From contig NZ_JASAUZ010000001.1 in assembly GCF_030162935.1 (NCBI RefSeq), positions 496,001-560,000 of the forward strand: DNA of 64,000 nt, in the 5' to 3' direction. Source of the DNA: Comamonas halotolerans (GTDB lineage Bacteria > Pseudomonadota > Gammaproteobacteria > Burkholderiales > Burkholderiaceae_C). The notes beneath the pieces are model-generated. The model was not told the origin of the DNA. It did not search any database and saw nothing but the letters and a program-made list of their open reading frames with translations. Positions 9,642 to 23,980 of the stretch are shown here, piece by piece. The first letter of the stretch is position 1; each line of letters opens with the position of its first letter. The translations under genes and the position numbers were made by a program.

Positions 9642-10967
9642 TCATGGCTTGCGCTGCTGAGGCGAAGCCGCATTCAATTGCCGCAAATGCTCCAGTTTTT
9701 CACCAATTTTGATTTCCATTCCTCTGGGAACCGGTTGGTAAAAGCGGGGATTCTCCATCCCCTCTGGAAAGTAGTCCTCTCCGGCTGCAAAGCCACCTTC
9801 TTCGTCGTGGGCGTATCGGTAACCCTTACCCCAATCCATGTCTTTCATCATCTTGGTGGGCGCGTTGCGCAAATGCATCGGAATCGGGCGGGTACTTTCG
9901 GTTTTAACCAGGGCTTTCATCTGGTTATAGGCCTTGTAACCCGCGTTGCTCTTCGGCGCGACCGCCAAATACAGCACTGCCTGCGCTAATGCCAGCTCAC
10001 CTTCCGGACTGCCCAAACGCTCATAAGTGGTTGCGGCATCGTTGGCAATTTGCATGGCTCGCGGGTCAGCCAAACCAATGTCCTCCCACGCCATGCGCAC
10101 AATACGCCTTGCCATGTAACGCGGGTCTGCGCCACCATCGAGCATGCGCACCAGCCAATACAAGGCAGCGTCTGGGTCTGAACCGCGCACCGATTTGTGC
10201 AAGGCACTGATGGTGTCGTAGAACTGTTCGCCGCCTTTGTCGTAACGGCGCATGCGCTCGCCCAGCACTTGCAGCAACCAGGCATCGGTGATGGATTCCA
10301 CCTGGGCCTGCTCTGCTGTAATGGACAGTGTCTCCAGCGTATTGAGCAGGCGGCGCGCATCACCATCGGCATAGGCAATCAGGCGCTCCAGCGCATCTTC
10401 GTCAATCGCAGGGACAGCCTGTAACGCCTGCGCTTTGGCCACTATTTGAGCCAAGTCTGCGGGTGTGAGGCTTTGCAGCACATAGACTGCAGCACGACTG
10501 AGCAATGCAGAGTTCACCTCGAACGATGGGTTCTCCGTGGTGGCGCCAATGAAGGTAAAAAGCCCGCTCTCCACATGTGGCAGAAAGGCATCTTGCTGGC
10601 TTTTGTTGAAGCGGTGTACTTCGTCGACAAAAACAATTGTGCGCTGCGGCATCAACCCATTGCGCGCTGCCTCCGCCCTTTCCACCGCCTCACGGATATC
10701 TTTCACCCCTCCCAGCACTGCACTGATGGAGATGAACTGTGCATCAAATGCATCAGCCATCAAACGGGCAATGGTGGTCTTGCCCACACCCGGAGGCCCC
10801 CAAAGAATGCAACTGTGAGGGCGCCCGGACTCAAAAGCCAAGCGCAATGGCATGCCCTCACCCAGCACATGCTGCTGACCTACCACCTCTGCCAGCGTGC
10901 GCGGGCGTAATCGTTCTGGCAACGGCTGATGCAGGGCCGTATCGCCACCTGTTTTGACGTTGGACAA
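9642..10967 (-). CDS. rarA: Replication-associated recombination protein A (RarA/MgsA) AAA+ ATPase
   Basis: RarA is a clamp-loader-like AAA+ ATPase acting at stalled replication forks. The 441 residues show the N-terminal RPRTLAEVVGQQH block, Walker A GPPGVGKT (57-64), Walker B with DEVHRFNKSQQDAF (115-128), sensor 1 GATTENPSFE, and the C-terminal tetramerisation region with GSPEGELALAQ. The start is TTG at 10967 with an AAGGTGA ribosome site 7 bases upstream; no ATG fits better. lolA and ftsK lie nearby on the same strand, but brnQ on the opposite strand separates them from rarA. Confidence 0.94.
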   Translation of the reverse strand: MSNVKTGGDTALHQPLPERLRPRTLAEVVGQQHVLGEGMPLRLAFESGRPHSCILWGPPGVGKTTIARLMADAFDAQFISISAVLGGVKDIREAVERAEAARNGLMPQRTIVFVDEVHRFNKSQQDAFLPHVESGLFTFIGATTENPSFEVNSALLSRAAVYVLQSLTPADLAQIVAKAQALQAVPAIDEDALERLIAYADGDARRLLNTLETLSITAEQAQVESITDAWLLQVLGERMRRYDKGGEQFYDTISALHKSVRGSDPDAALYWLVRMLDGGADPRYMARRIVRMAWEDIGLADPRAMQIANDAATTYERLGSPEGELALAQAVLYLAVAPKSNAGYKAYNQMKALVKTESTRPIPMHLRNAPTKMMKDMDWGKGYRYAHDEEGGFAAGEDYFPEGMENPRFYQPVPRGMEIKIGEKLEHLRQLNAASPQQRKP

Positions 10968-18626: not shown

Positions 18627-18772
18627 CGTTCTCAGGGCGGGGTGAAATTCCCCACCGGCGGTGAGCAACCTTGGTTGCAAGCCCGCGAGCGCTTGCAGAA
18701 GCAATTGTGCAAGGTCAGCAGACCAAGTGAGATTCTTGGGCCGACGGTAACAGTCCGGATGAAAGAGAAACG
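18627..18772 (+). ncRNA. FMN riboswitch (RFN element)
   Basis: The conserved RFN segments occur in order: the 5' P1 strand with CTCAGGGCGGGGTGAAATTC, then CCCACCGGCGGT, GAGCAACCTTGG with GCCCGCGAGCG, GGTCAGCAGACC, GATTCTTGGGCCGACGGT, CAGTCCGGATGAAAGAGAA and the closing P1 strand. It lies 116 bases before the lumazine synthase start. No intrinsic terminator is visible between the aptamer and the gene; a GCGCGC pair at 18814/18844 could form a stem. Control may be by ribosome-site access or Rho. Confidence 0.95.
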
Positions 18773-18888
18773 TGAAGCTAGTCCTATCCAGCTTTTGGAC
18801 AGTGCGCTTGTCTGCGCGCCTGTTCTTGGCTGCGTCTGCCTTCGCGCGCCCTGATTCATTTGTTCTACGTCTTAGAAAGACTCAAACC

Positions 18889-19413
18889 ATGAATCAGACC
18901 TTGACCCCTTCCGCCACACCAGCTGAAACCCAGGCAGCGTTGGCACAGGCCCGTATCGCCATCATCAGTGCCAACTGGCACAGCGATGTGGTGCACAACG
19001 CACGCAATGCCTGTGCCCGGCAACTGCAAATCCTTGGTGCTGCGCCTGCACGCATTCACCAGGTAGAAGTGCCTGGAGCCTTTGAAATTCCGCTCATGGC
19101 GAAAAAACTCGCTGACTCAGGCAAATTTGATGCCGTGATTGGCTGCGCCGTCATCGTCAACGGAGGTATTTACCACCACGAGTTTGTCTCCGCCGCCGTC
19201 GTGGACGGCCTCATGCGCGTGCAACTCGATACCGGCGTGCCCGTGTTCTCGGTGGCACTGACACCCTACAACTTCCAGCCCTCCGAAGATTTGCTCGACT
19301 TTTTCCGCAGCCACTTTGTGAAAAAGGGAGAAGAGGCAGCCAACGCCTGTGCCCAGACTTTGGCCGCACACGCCTCAGTTGATGCACTCTTGGAAGAGTC
19401 CGCCAGCGCTTAA
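18889..19413 (+). CDS. ribH2: 6,7-dimethyl-8-ribityllumazine synthase, type II (RibH2-like)
   Basis: This enzyme condenses 5-amino-6-ribitylaminouracil with dihydroxybutanone phosphate, the penultimate step of riboflavin synthesis. The 174 residues contain ARIAIISANWHSDVV, VPGAFEIPL, and the catalytic stretch GGIYHHEFVSAAVVDGLM (HHEF at 96-99). The form IYHHEFV with LTPYNFQPS is that of the type II decameric enzymes (Brucella RibH2 type), not the icosahedral RibH with YEHVALE-like sequences. It stands alone, without ribB, ribE or ribD, directly downstream of an FMN riboswitch. ATG 18889 follows homologue starts; the ribosome site is weak. Confidence 0.88.
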   Translation: MNQTLTPSATPAETQAALAQARIAIISANWHSDVVHNARNACARQLQILGAAPARIHQVEVPGAFEIPLMAKKLADSGKFDAVIGCAVIVNGGIYHHEFVSAAVVDGLMRVQLDTGVPVFSVALTPYNFQPSEDLLDFFRSHFVKKGEEAANACAQTLAAHASVDALLEESASA

Positions 19414-20245: not shown

Positions 20246-21022
20246 TCAAAAAATACCTTTGGGCTTTTTGCCCTGTTTGTTTTCCACAGGGTTGGCCAGC
20301 AGCCAGTTGGCCGGATAGGCTCTCAAGAATTCACGTGCTTTTTCAGGTCGAGCGGTCAACCAAGCGTCATATGTTCCCTCGCCCAAAACAGCGGGCATGC
20401 GCCGATCCGCACCTTGTGGGCCATAACGGCGCATCAATGCATGGCTGTTGGCGTTGACGGTCAAAACGGCATAGCTCAACAACTCAGCACCAGTTTCTGG
20501 ATCTTTCCAGCTGCCCCAAACACCAGCGATCCCCATAGGCTGTCCATCGACACGAGCAATGCGTGTGGGCACAGGCTTGCCAGTACGCAAATCGTCGACA
20601 TAAAACGCCTGCATGGGAATGATGCAGCGTTGTCCTGCCAGCCACGCATCCCGAAAAGCCTGGGCCGTGCTCACGGTTTCATTGAGCGCCACCAATAATT
20701 TTGGGGCACGCAGTTTGGCATCTTTGGCTGACTTCACCCAGCTTGGCACAAAGCCCCACTGAGCACGAACCCACTCCCGTTCAGCCTGGATCGCTTTTTT
20801 ACCCGCCGATGCCAGTCCGGAGGAGCTTTCGCTGAAGACTGCAGGCGCAGGTACTGGTGCAGCAAGATCGGCTGTTGCAGTGTCTGGCTGGGCCTTGGCC
20901 CATATAAAACCGGCCATACGTCGAGCACGCATCTGGCGCTCAGCAGGATGCTCCGAAGGGGTAACTTTGAAAAAATCCCTCCACATATCCAGTGCGGGAA
21001 GGTTTTCGTACTGTGCAGTCAT
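20246..21022 (-). CDS. SRAP domain protein (YedK/HMCES family) lacking catalytic residues
   Basis: The fold markers of SRAP proteins are present: AQWGFVPSW (88-96), FRDAWLAGQRCIIPMQAFY (123-141), IAGVWGSW and a DRRMPAVL strand (206-213). SRAP proteins crosslink to abasic sites through Cys2. Here the start reads M-T-A-Q-Y, so residue 2 is Thr. The usual N-A-R-x-E-T reads V-A-L-N-E-T (Asn to Val111, Arg to Leu113), the Glu of F-Y-E is Val142, and the His before the RMP motif is missing. No in-frame upstream start supplies a Cys. The frame is intact over 258 residues, so it is probably expressed but not a canonical DNA-protein crosslinker. Confidence 0.8.
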   Translation of the reverse strand: MTAQYENLPALDMWRDFFKVTPSEHPAERQMRARRMAGFIWAKAQPDTATADLAAPVPAPAVFSESSSGLASAGKKAIQAEREWVRAQWGFVPSWVKSAKDAKLRAPKLLVALNETVSTAQAFRDAWLAGQRCIIPMQAFYVDDLRTGKPVPTRIARVDGQPMGIAGVWGSWKDPETGAELLSYAVLTVNANSHALMRRYGPQGADRRMPAVLGEGTYDAWLTARPEKAREFLRAYPANWLLANPVENKQGKKPKGIF

Positions 21023-21204
21023 CTGCGGATGGTACGAGGAAGTGCTTGCCCGGGAAGACTCAAGGTTTCGTACACAGCCTGTTCATTGGCCGCCGCTATC
21101 AGTTACTCCTCTGAAGTCATGCAGATGTCACCTCCGTGTCGCCTGCATGTCGTGGTGAGTTTTGCGTTCAGATGGCAGTCTGCGGTGTGACGAAAGGAAT
21201 CTCT

Positions 21205-22557: not shown

Positions 22558-23829
22558 TTACTTACGCTGCCACACGGCGGCAAAGAAACCATCGGTCTGA
22601 TGGGTATGGGGCCACAGACGCACATATTGCGTACCTGTTTCACCGCCCGCACAAAGTCCATTGGCGTTCTCCACCTTCAACTGGGTCAGCACTTCTCCAG
22701 CATCAAGTGGCACGAAGTCAGGGTGAGCCTTTTGAAAAGCCTCCGCAATGCGCTCGTTTTCTTCAGGCAAAACCGAGCAAGTGGCATACACCAGACGACC
22801 ACCAGACTTCACCATGCGTGCCGCGCTGCTCAGAATGGAGCGTTGTTTTTCATTCAACTCGGCCACAGCCTTTTCGTCCTGACGCCACTTCAAATCAGGG
22901 TTGCGGCGCAAAGTCCCCAAGCCCGAGCAAGGCGCATCCACCAGCACACGGTCAATCTTGCCCGCCAGACGCTTGACGCGCTCATCCCGCTCATGCGCCA
23001 AGGCCGCAGGGTGCACGTTGGACAAACCGCTGCGCGCCAAACGGGGTTTGAGAGCCTCCAGGCGGTGGGCCGACACGTCAAATGCATACAGACGTCCTGT
23101 ATTACGCATTTGTGCGCCGATGGCCAGCGTTTTTCCACCCGCACCAGCACAAAAGTCCACCACCATTTCGCCGCGTTTGGCGTCCAGCAGCAAGGCCAGC
23201 AGTTGCGAGCCTTCATCTTGCACTTCAATACGGCCATCCTTGAAGGCAGCCAGTTTGGTCAGCGCAGGCTTTTCATCCGTACGCAGTCCCCAAGGGGAAA
23301 ACGGTGTGGGCTGCAGCTTCACGCCTTCTGCTGCCAGCTCTTTTTGCACAGCATCACGCTTGGCGCTCAAGGCGTTCACGCGCAAATCCAACGGAGCTGG
23401 CTCCAGCATGCTTGCAGCCAAGGCTTCAAACTGGTCGCCCACCTGCGCTTGCAGAGCATCTGCCATCCATTGCGGCAGATTGTGGCGGTGCTGCGGCAGC
23501 AACTCTTCTGGCTTGACGGCGTCGCAGTCATCAAGCCACTTGGCTTCCTGCTCGCTCAATGCAGCCTTCAGAAAATTGCGCGGCGCGTGAAAGCCCAAAA
23601 TGGCCAGACGACGCTCTTTGGGGCCCGAGCCAGAGCGTGCCAGTGCTTCAAACAAGGTTTTCTTGCGCAGCACGGTATAGGTGGTTTCGGCCAACGTCGC
23701 CCGCTCACGGGGGCCAAGATTGCGGTGATCGCGAAAATAACGGGACACCACGGCGTCAGCGGGGTGCTGGAATTGGAGGGTCAGCTTGACCAGTTCAGCG
23801 CAAGCGTCGAGAAGGGCTTTGGGATGCAT
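22558..23829 (-). CDS. RsmB/NOP-family SAM-dependent RNA cytosine-5 methyltransferase
   Basis: The 423-residue protein has an N-terminal helical region (1-120) and a C-terminal Rossmann methyltransferase. Diagnostic m5C motifs are present: VVDFCAGAGGKTLAIGA (SAM site), LVDAPCSGLGTLRRNPDLKW (motif IV with the PC Cys) and VYATCSVLPEEN (motif VI with the TC nucleophile Cys). Members modify 16S rRNA (RsmB, RsmF) or tRNA; Comamonadaceae usually carry a second copy next to fmt, so I do not call this one rsmB. The start is ATG 23829. It is divergent from the DUF1653 gene. Confidence 0.87.
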   Translation of the reverse strand: MHPKALLDACAELVKLTLQFQHPADAVVSRYFRDHRNLGPRERATLAETTYTVLRKKTLFEALARSGSGPKERRLAILGFHAPRNFLKAALSEQEAKWLDDCDAVKPEELLPQHRHNLPQWMADALQAQVGDQFEALAASMLEPAPLDLRVNALSAKRDAVQKELAAEGVKLQPTPFSPWGLRTDEKPALTKLAAFKDGRIEVQDEGSQLLALLLDAKRGEMVVDFCAGAGGKTLAIGAQMRNTGRLYAFDVSAHRLEALKPRLARSGLSNVHPAALAHERDERVKRLAGKIDRVLVDAPCSGLGTLRRNPDLKWRQDEKAVAELNEKQRSILSSAARMVKSGGRLVYATCSVLPEENERIAEAFQKAHPDFVPLDAGEVLTQLKVENANGLCAGGETGTQYVRLWPHTHQTDGFFAAVWQRK

Positions 23830-23980
23830 AGCCGCTATTGTCCCACTGCCCACAATTCCCGACACAACACTGGATGCTGATGCTGCGCACAGTGAAGGGC
23901 ACTTGATGCGTGCAACCGGGACTTTGCATCCAAGAGGTGCCCAATTAACATCTGGCGCTCACTATTTATGGGTTTCCAGC

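Follow-up and report, generated by a model that had tools for sequence, protein, structure and literature searches.

A SRAP gene devoid of the canonical active-site residues

The DNA analysed here, hereinafter the window, is the whole stretch of 64,000 nucleotides from Comamonas halotolerans. Its minus strand carries an unbroken open reading frame which runs from an ATG to a TGA codon and encodes a protein of 258 amino acid residues. This protein matches the Pfam SRAP family (PF02586) with 105.3 bits at a cut-off of 27.1 and hence belongs to the SRAP domain family; no other PF02586 match is present in the 4.05 Mb genome. The gene is located among a CYTH-domain gene, ribH (18772-19413), an uncharacterised gene, and an HTH/2TM gene, as well as a glycine-zipper-like gene (assigned below the cut-off), rsmB (22558-23865), and a DUF1653 gene. 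The features considered below are the following, with the five codons placed by alignment and their letters checked:

21029..21034, minus strand: TACCAT, a -10-like hexamer 6 bases before the ATG, with a predicted leaderless start (clade conservation; letters checked)
20246..21022, minus strand: gene of a putative SRAP-fold pseudoenzyme, 258 residues (sole PF02586 match in the genome, 105.3 bits; AlphaFold2 pLDDT 85.8; Z 29.4 with 1zn6)
21017..21019, minus strand: codon of Thr2 (Cys2 in canonical SRAPs)
20789..20893, minus strand: low-complexity loop, approximately residues 44-78, variable and of low model confidence (pLDDT <50 at residues 49-56 and 63-74)
20696..20728, minus strand: helix of residues 99-109, bearing the clade-fixed Asp101, Leu104, Arg105 and Lys108, directly ahead of the strand of the former Asn75 (model and column conservation)
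20690..20692, minus strand: codon of Val111 (Asn75 of YedK)
20684..20686, minus strand: codon of Leu113 (Arg77 of YedK)
20597..20599, minus strand: codon of Val142 (Glu105 of YedK)
20420..20422, minus strand: codon of Gly201 (His160 of YedK)

When the window protein is aligned with Cys-bearing SRAPs from its own bacterial family, Thr2, Val111, Leu113, Val142 and Gly201 take the places of YedK Cys2, Asn75, Arg77, Glu105 and His160, respectively, in full agreement with the replacements listed in a preliminary description of this gene; the 'DRRMP' strand mentioned there is also present, and Arg208 is the conserved arginine of that motif. Accordingly, the residues that define a SRAP crosslinker are missing, namely Cys2 (here Thr2) and the active-site Asn, Glu and His (here Val111, Val142 and Gly201), and so is the Glu105 equivalent (here Val142) that defines an AP lyase of the kind represented by the C2A and C2S mutants of YedK. 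Threonine in position 2 permits removal of the initiator methionine under the usual rule. As far as the available parts of the two papers go, Cys2 has been described as 'absolutely conserved' in SRAPs (PMC3765255, 2013) and termed the 'invariant cysteine' (PMC9436759).

The preliminary description had also proposed a structure prediction. The AlphaFold2 model, for which 64 clade sequences served as input (the window protein and 63 of the 74 distinct relatives listed), has a pLDDT of 85.8 and a pTM of 0.82, with pLDDT below 50 at residues 49-56 and 63-74; the loop of approximately residues 44-78 is partly gapped in the aligned near Cys-bearing SRAPs. All 20 Foldseek matches at E <=0.001 are SRAP proteins. 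Likewise, VIA-align listed 15 PDB entries (Z from 17.6 to 29.4), all of them HMCES, YedK or SRAP entries as per PMC3765255, with Z of 29.4 for 1zn6, 25.3 for 2f20, about 23 for HMCES, and about 20 for YedK, including the C2A Schiff-base complex 8d2m. As modelled, the window protein retains the SRAP (BB1717-like) fold.

The Cys-less clade

The window gene is no chance match or artefact, and its orthologues span the genus: a full orthologue is found in 41 of the 53 genomes (the own one included), and a fragmentary copy is present in one more, an incomplete draft (G012). In 26 of the 41 genomes with a full orthologue there is no other PF02586 match (weak second matches were seen in the genus search in three of these 26, namely G007, G014 and G044), which argues that the gene is not kept merely beside an active paralogue. 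Within the family, at least 59 of the 399 genomes sampled match at 203 bits or more, with the next match at 152 bits, this number being a lower bound because at most 6 candidates were scored per genome. At the level of the order, at least 7 of 300 genomes match at 1e-42, of which 6 belong to the family (the own one included) and one (G680) lies outside of it, its match having Ser2; at the level of the class, a profile search at 1e-45 yielded at least 3 of 369 genomes, the own one and two of the same family. With 8 and 7 first-look candidates per genome scored in the order and class searches, respectively, these counts are lower bounds as well. Among the best 80 of the 281 confirmed stretches, the named relatives belong to Comamonas, Acidovorax, Paracidovorax, Delftia, Simplicispira, Giesbergeria, Hydrogenophaga, Rhodoferax, Pseudorhodoferax, Curvibacter and Polaromonas, and the further relatives are draft genomes labelled otherwise or less precisely.

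An origin from a mobile element was considered and is unsupported. Of the matching records, 39 from phages and 590 from plasmids, not one has a single site that spans 80% of the query, and all identities are below 60%; among the matches listed, the best phage record scored 135 bits and the best plasmid record 143 bits, with 51-69% of the query aligned. The clade is chromosomal, vertically inherited, and nearly all of it belongs to Comamonadaceae, a family whose members live in water and soil.

The residue states were compared in 146 distinct proteins of the clade and 19 Cys-bearing relatives of the same family (L044-L049, L051 and L106-L117), with identical proteins, the fragment L043, and the loci L050, L064, L104 and L152 omitted, the last four because of a damaged frame or a missing start. 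In the clade, position 2 is occupied by Ser in 98 proteins, Thr in 36, Ala in 5, Ile in 5, Pro in 2, and Cys in none. The His160 column contains Gln in 77 proteins, Gly in 62, Asp in 3, and Ala, Lys, His and Arg in one each. Asn75 is still present in 103 proteins, Arg77 in 78 (with Lys in another 63), and Glu105 in 92; 64 proteins have lost the Arg in the DEKRM motif. All 92 proteins with Glu105 are among the 141 that have Ser, Thr, Ala or Pro in position 2, with none among the five that have Ile2. The 19 Cys-bearing relatives invariably possess the Asn, Arg, Glu and His, and 18 of them have Cys2 (the start of L112 is unreadable, and L106 is without an ATG ahead of the Cys). As a phylum-wide control, 30 SRAP loci were used out of the best matches across 199 genomes; by pattern, 26 of them start with MCGRF or MCGRY, and the other four with MCGRM or MCGRL.

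The alignment, which had been proposed as a check on whether the substitutions are shared by a clade, shows that the loss of Cys2 is indeed clade-wide, and that few proteins are without all five residues: the identical five-letter state TVLVG is found in 3 of the 146 proteins, those of the window and its two nearest relatives from the same genus. The possibility that an upstream Cys start was lost in the window by a recent mutation is rejected, as no close clade keeps Cys2 (0/146); the short in-frame stretch ahead of the window gene is situated further upstream than the ATG and -10 hexamer which the clade has in common.

Two groups of loci deserve a separate mention. In a draft genome of Hydrogenophaga sp. 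(L064/L152), the frame is without an in-frame start, and a TGC codon stands where residue 2 would be encoded; this is probably a damaged or misassembled copy. The loci L234-L238, L240 and L241 encode long SRAP-like proteins that start with M/V-CYSA, contain a 'GHDR' motif and carry a long insert before the central strands; they are a distinct Cys-bearing subfamily.

Order of the losses

A tree was computed from 47 Cys-less and 19 Cys-bearing proteins, with seven columns of the catalytic region blanked. In this tree, the Cys-less proteins are on a single branch with a support of 100/100 and a long stem of 1.26 (one long outgroup row, L051, was flagged by the program as unsure); in a FastTree of all 165 proteins, the local support of the Cys-less clade is 0.916. 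Parsimony, with ties broken arbitrarily, assigns Ser2, Asn75, Arg77, Glu105 and Gln160 to the root of the clade. In the reconstruction shown, Glu105 is replaced on nine branches, by Val on five, Ala on three and Gln on one, and Asn75 and Arg77 also change repeatedly within the clade. As reconstructed, the loss of Cys2 and His160 falls on the stem of the clade, and Asn75, Arg77 and Glu105 followed later, in parallel. Since the Asn, Arg and Glu disappeared after the stem and several times over, the losses were stepwise and not, as had been supposed in the preliminary description, coordinated, the clade root still retaining these three residues next to Ser2 and Gln160.

Selection, fixed residues and charge

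Over 1183 close pairs (70-97% identity, dS of 0.05-1.5; the pairs are not independent of each other), the median dN/dS is 0.22, and no pair reaches 1. Between the window gene and its two nearest relatives, dN is 0.14-0.15, with dS values of 1.3 and 2.3 that are near saturation. The columns of Cys2, Asn75, Glu105 and His160 change at a rate between the 56th and the 74th percentile of the 222 core columns, and that of Arg77 at the 37th percentile. Invariant in all 146 clade proteins are 35 of the 222 core columns, of which 12 hold residues that are non-canonical as compared to 11 near Cys-bearing relatives, namely Asp101, Leu104, Arg105, Lys108, Phe140, Arg199, Tyr200, Gly204, Gly216, Arg234, Asn244 and Pro245. 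The charge of the core differs as well: over 225 aligned columns, the median net charge is +5 (2 to 9) in the clade versus 0 (-4 to 4) in the 11 Cys-bearing relatives, and the median pI is 9.14 versus 7.17.

The constraint on the clade has changed and is not absent; the frame is under purifying selection. The earlier verdict of a pseudoenzyme and not decay is sustained by the fully supported clade (100/100), the lack of any pair with dN/dS of 1 or above, the 35 fixed columns, and the intact predicted fold; an untranslated frame, which would have spoken against it, did not appear, in that both the frame and a promoter element are conserved at the sequence level. The new role suggested in the same description stands to the extent that it follows from the conservation of the gene without Cys2 across the clade. 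That no clade protein has Cys2, and yet the gene is the sole PF02586 match in 26 of 41 genomes of the genus, means that the fold does something else that is worth keeping.

A predicted leaderless-type start, probably outside the SOS regulon

In 124 of 145 clade genes, a TANNAT hexamer is found 5-8 bases ahead of the ATG, as compared to no more than three genes for any other 4-base slot within 100 bases upstream; a Shine-Dalgarno-like string is found in 19 of the 145. This arrangement is predicted to represent a leaderless-type start, with the transcript starting at or near the AUG. The exceptions include a group from the same genus in which the gene closely follows rsmE. TANNAT is located just before the start in 6 of 17 Cys-bearing relatives too, so that the hexamer may predate the clade. 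No publication on leaderless mRNA in Comamonadaceae was found in the part of the literature covered.

The LexA box was searched for as CTGTn8ACAG, the strict rule being one mismatch and at least 5 of the 8 central positions A or T. Of the Cys-bearing relatives, 10 of 18 carry a box within one mismatch (L046-L049, L106, L111, L113 and L115-L117), 9 of the 10 boxes being located 41-74 bases before the start, and 9 of 18 pass the strict rule, with 0.3 expected from shuffles. Among the 145 clade genes, none passes the strict rule (1.55 expected), and six are within one mismatch, which is about the level of shuffles. In the 150 bases upstream of the window gene, the best match has two mismatches. 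As a positive control, the box is present before recA and lexA of the same genome; within the window, the nearest sites that pass the strict rule, at 10313 and 48498, are away from the gene, and no SOS or polymerase genes are found among the 7 window neighbours scanned. Thus, the window gene has neither the LexA box nor the SOS operon of an SOS-regulated SRAP gene, and the clade appears, judging by its upstream regions, to have left the SOS regulon. The lack of a LexA box suggests that the gene is expressed probably outside the SOS response.

Gene neighbourhood

The neighbourhoods were compared with a codon-usage gene caller, which replaced an ORF-length caller that gave spurious neighbours in GC-rich DNA, and which mis-called the window gene itself. 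There is no neighbour common to the whole clade: the commonest cluster occurs in 28 of the 79 named loci, and groups of genera have some neighbours in common. An operon or a partner gene was looked for and rejected, no neighbour being clade-wide among the 79 loci.

A separate observation is that genes of rRNA modification (rsmE, rsmB, RluE-like) recur upstream in different lineages (L026-L042, Acidovorax loci, and rsmB in the window). Over 174 clade loci, rsmE is located upstream on the same strand in 42 and rsmB in 11; 16 loci have, on the opposite strand, a gene of an RluE-like rRNA pseudouridine synthase, assigned from a match that stayed under the cut-off of the model. In one group from the same genus (L027-L041), rsmE ends just before the gene.

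A second Cys-less lineage

In the alphaproteobacterial family f250, the protein of locus L244 has matches at 1e-20 in 34 of 119 genomes, Cys-bearing relatives included. Of 30 loci, 29 have a start, and 16 of these encode Thr or Pro in position 2 (one of the 16, L260, has CTG in place of the start codon); this Cys-less lineage falls among the loci L248-L265. His is found in none of these 16 proteins, Asn in all 16, and Glu in 10. The 13 Cys-bearing proteins of the same family all have Glu, and 12 have His, L262 combining Cys2 with the lack of His. A similar pattern of losses is thus seen in another bacterial class, and, from these sequences, the f250 lineage seems to be independent of the Comamonadaceae clade. 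The latter is hence not the sole exception to the 'absolutely conserved' Cys2 in the available part of PMC3765255.

What the protein may do

The experimental data on YedK, as given in the available part of PMC9436759, help to interpret these losses. Without the Cys2 thiolate, the stable crosslink to the abasic site is lost, and the N-terminal amine forms a Schiff base followed by lyase cleavage; with both C2A and C2S, the Schiff base can be trapped by borohydride (PMC9436759). In the C2A background, H160Q retains approximately 40% of the lyase rate (a 2.5-fold loss) with full Schiff-base formation, and E105Q decreases the lyase 25-fold and Schiff-base formation 10-fold, so that Glu105 is needed (PMC9436759). 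With Cys2 in place, E105A slows the reaction most, H160A at least 10-fold, and N75A modestly; SRAP mutants in the Glu, His and Asn lose crosslinking and keep DNA binding in vitro (PMC9436759). Going by these rates, it is the loss of Cys2 that is decisive.

Homology, residue losses, monophyly, purifying selection, promoter differences and the charge shift, together with the predicted fold, were established by computation. We believe, with a probability of roughly 0.55, that the window gene encodes a neofunctionalised pseudoenzyme outside the SOS response, probably a non-covalent nucleic-acid binder; the lack of catalysis, the nucleic-acid binding and the constitutive expression are what we infer within this reading. 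The following sequence of events can be envisaged. Cys2, which is the nucleophile of the crosslink, and His160, which is the acid, would have been lost on the stem of the clade, and Asn75, Arg77 and the important Glu105 would then have been lost as well in the Comamonas lineage of the window. By analogy with YedK, a thiazolidine crosslink between the window protein and an abasic site would be impossible, and Schiff-base catalysis very probably so; with Cys, Glu, Asn and Arg all gone, the protein should neither crosslink nor act as a lyase. Its expression would be probably non-SOS, from a promoter that starts transcription at or near the AUG. Binding could proceed via the old cleft for single strands and junctions, now in a more basic core, with Asp101, Leu104, Arg105 and Lys108 of the helix beside the dead pocket being used in it, and the protein, presumably a stable one, might cover or pass on damaged or structured nucleic acid, or recruit a partner. 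The repeated loss of Glu, while the scaffold and new basic residues were fixed, favours non-covalent nucleic-acid binding as the function shared by the clade.

Certain observations speak against this reading. The DNA channel may have changed, given the Leu at the place of Arg77 in the window protein, the Lys there in 63 of 146 proteins, and the loss of the DEKRM arginine in 64. That no neighbour is common to the whole clade counts against it as well. Part of the clade, with Glu105 in 92 of 146, may still do Schiff-base chemistry, and lyase activity is, by analogy, possible for the Glu-bearing members. Finally, the basic shift could serve the binding of RNA or of protein.

Several rival explanations were considered. 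Rather than a binder, the clade may comprise natural AP lyases, in which an exposed Ser, Thr, Ala or Pro and Glu105 let the amine form a Schiff base and cut the strand, with the window protein as a weakened or dead offshoot: the reconstructed ancestor with Ser2, Asn, Arg, Glu and Gln160 resembles the lyase mutants of YedK (available part of PMC9436759), 141 of 146 proteins have a suitable residue in position 2, with Glu in 92 of these 141 and in none of the five with Ile2, and the separate alphaproteobacterial lineage lost Cys and His while Glu was kept in 10 of 16. We consider this improbable, as, by parsimony, Glu was lost on nine branches, its column changes at a median rate, the window protein is without Glu, Asn and Arg, and a constantly used lyase could be harmful. 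Just as improbable is a protein-protein regulator that is built on the SRAP scaffold and binds no nucleic acid. The loss of some DNA-contact arginines would fit, and the fixed Phe140, Arg199, Tyr200, Gly204, Gly216, Arg234, Asn244 and Pro245 may form a partner surface, but the core became more basic, and no clade-wide neighbour hints at a partner.

A still weaker candidate is an RNA- or ribosome-directed protein, that is, a basic SRAP fold that moved from DNA damage to (r)RNA. The core shifted basic, and rsmE, rsmB and the RluE-like gene are found upstream in 42, 11 and 16 of 174 loci, respectively, with rsmB at 22558-23865 in the window; however, the loci are not independent and include some duplicates, the flank lengths differ, 105 of the 174 loci have none of the three genes at these flanks if no locus has two, and the idea is post hoc, having arisen after the neighbours had been noticed, and without a chance control. 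Recent decay, with the gene being a pseudogene before the break of its frame, can be given hardly any weight: there is a broken copy in the G012 draft, and the Hydrogenophaga draft (L064/L152) is without an in-frame start, but the loss of Cys2 is clade-wide under purifying selection, a full copy is kept in 41 of 53 genomes of the genus, and the -10 hexamer is conserved.

Beyond the non-covalent binder proposed for the window gene, one could speculate, although we regard it as unlikely, that the SRAP fold has left covalent shielding at least twice and by the same route, with Cys2 and His160 lost first, which with Glu105 still in place gives a natural AP-lyase genotype, and Glu lost thereafter, such that a non-SOS, non-covalent binder, possibly of RNA, remains, the window protein being an end point. 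The natural variants with Ser or Thr in position 2, with or without Glu105, make the choice between shield, lyase and binder directly testable. Moreover, the name 'SOS response-associated peptidase', where given to genes of the clade, may mislead, as SOS regulation and the ability to crosslink may both be missing. In the part of the literature covered, the term 'pseudoenzyme' together with SRAP or abasic site does not occur among the matches listed, no publication was found on DUF159 or 'SOS response-associated peptidase' in Comamonas, and the latter name together with four genus names is absent among the matches listed; the coverage of the literature being partial, we do not claim that Cys-less SRAPs are unpublished.

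Comparison with known SRAP proteins

Among the solved structures, the window protein is most similar to Q7WLM8 of Bordetella bronchiseptica (1zn6), which is both the top sequence match (3.7e-35) and the top fold match (Z of 29.4 over 209 residues, with 38% identity to the window model). Unlike 1zn6, which has Cys2, Glu115 and His173 according to the available part of PMC3765255, the window protein has Thr, Val and Gly. With YedK of Escherichia coli and its C2A mutant (6nua, 8d2m), it shares the SRAP fold (Z of about 19.5) and differs in being without the equivalents of Cys2, Glu105, His160, Asn75 and Arg77; in addition, the core of its clade is more basic than that of its own Cys-bearing relatives. 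The fold similarity extends to the SRAP domain of human HMCES (5ko9, 6oov; Z of about 23), which is also longer before the Asn strand. The helix before this strand is not claimed as a novelty of the clade, as 2f20 and HMCES are longer there too; as judged from the alignment with the 11 near Cys-bearing relatives, what is clade-specific in it is the fixed residues only. Whereas HMCES crosslinks to the abasic site through Cys2 (available part of PMC9436759), the window protein has the fold without the nucleophile.
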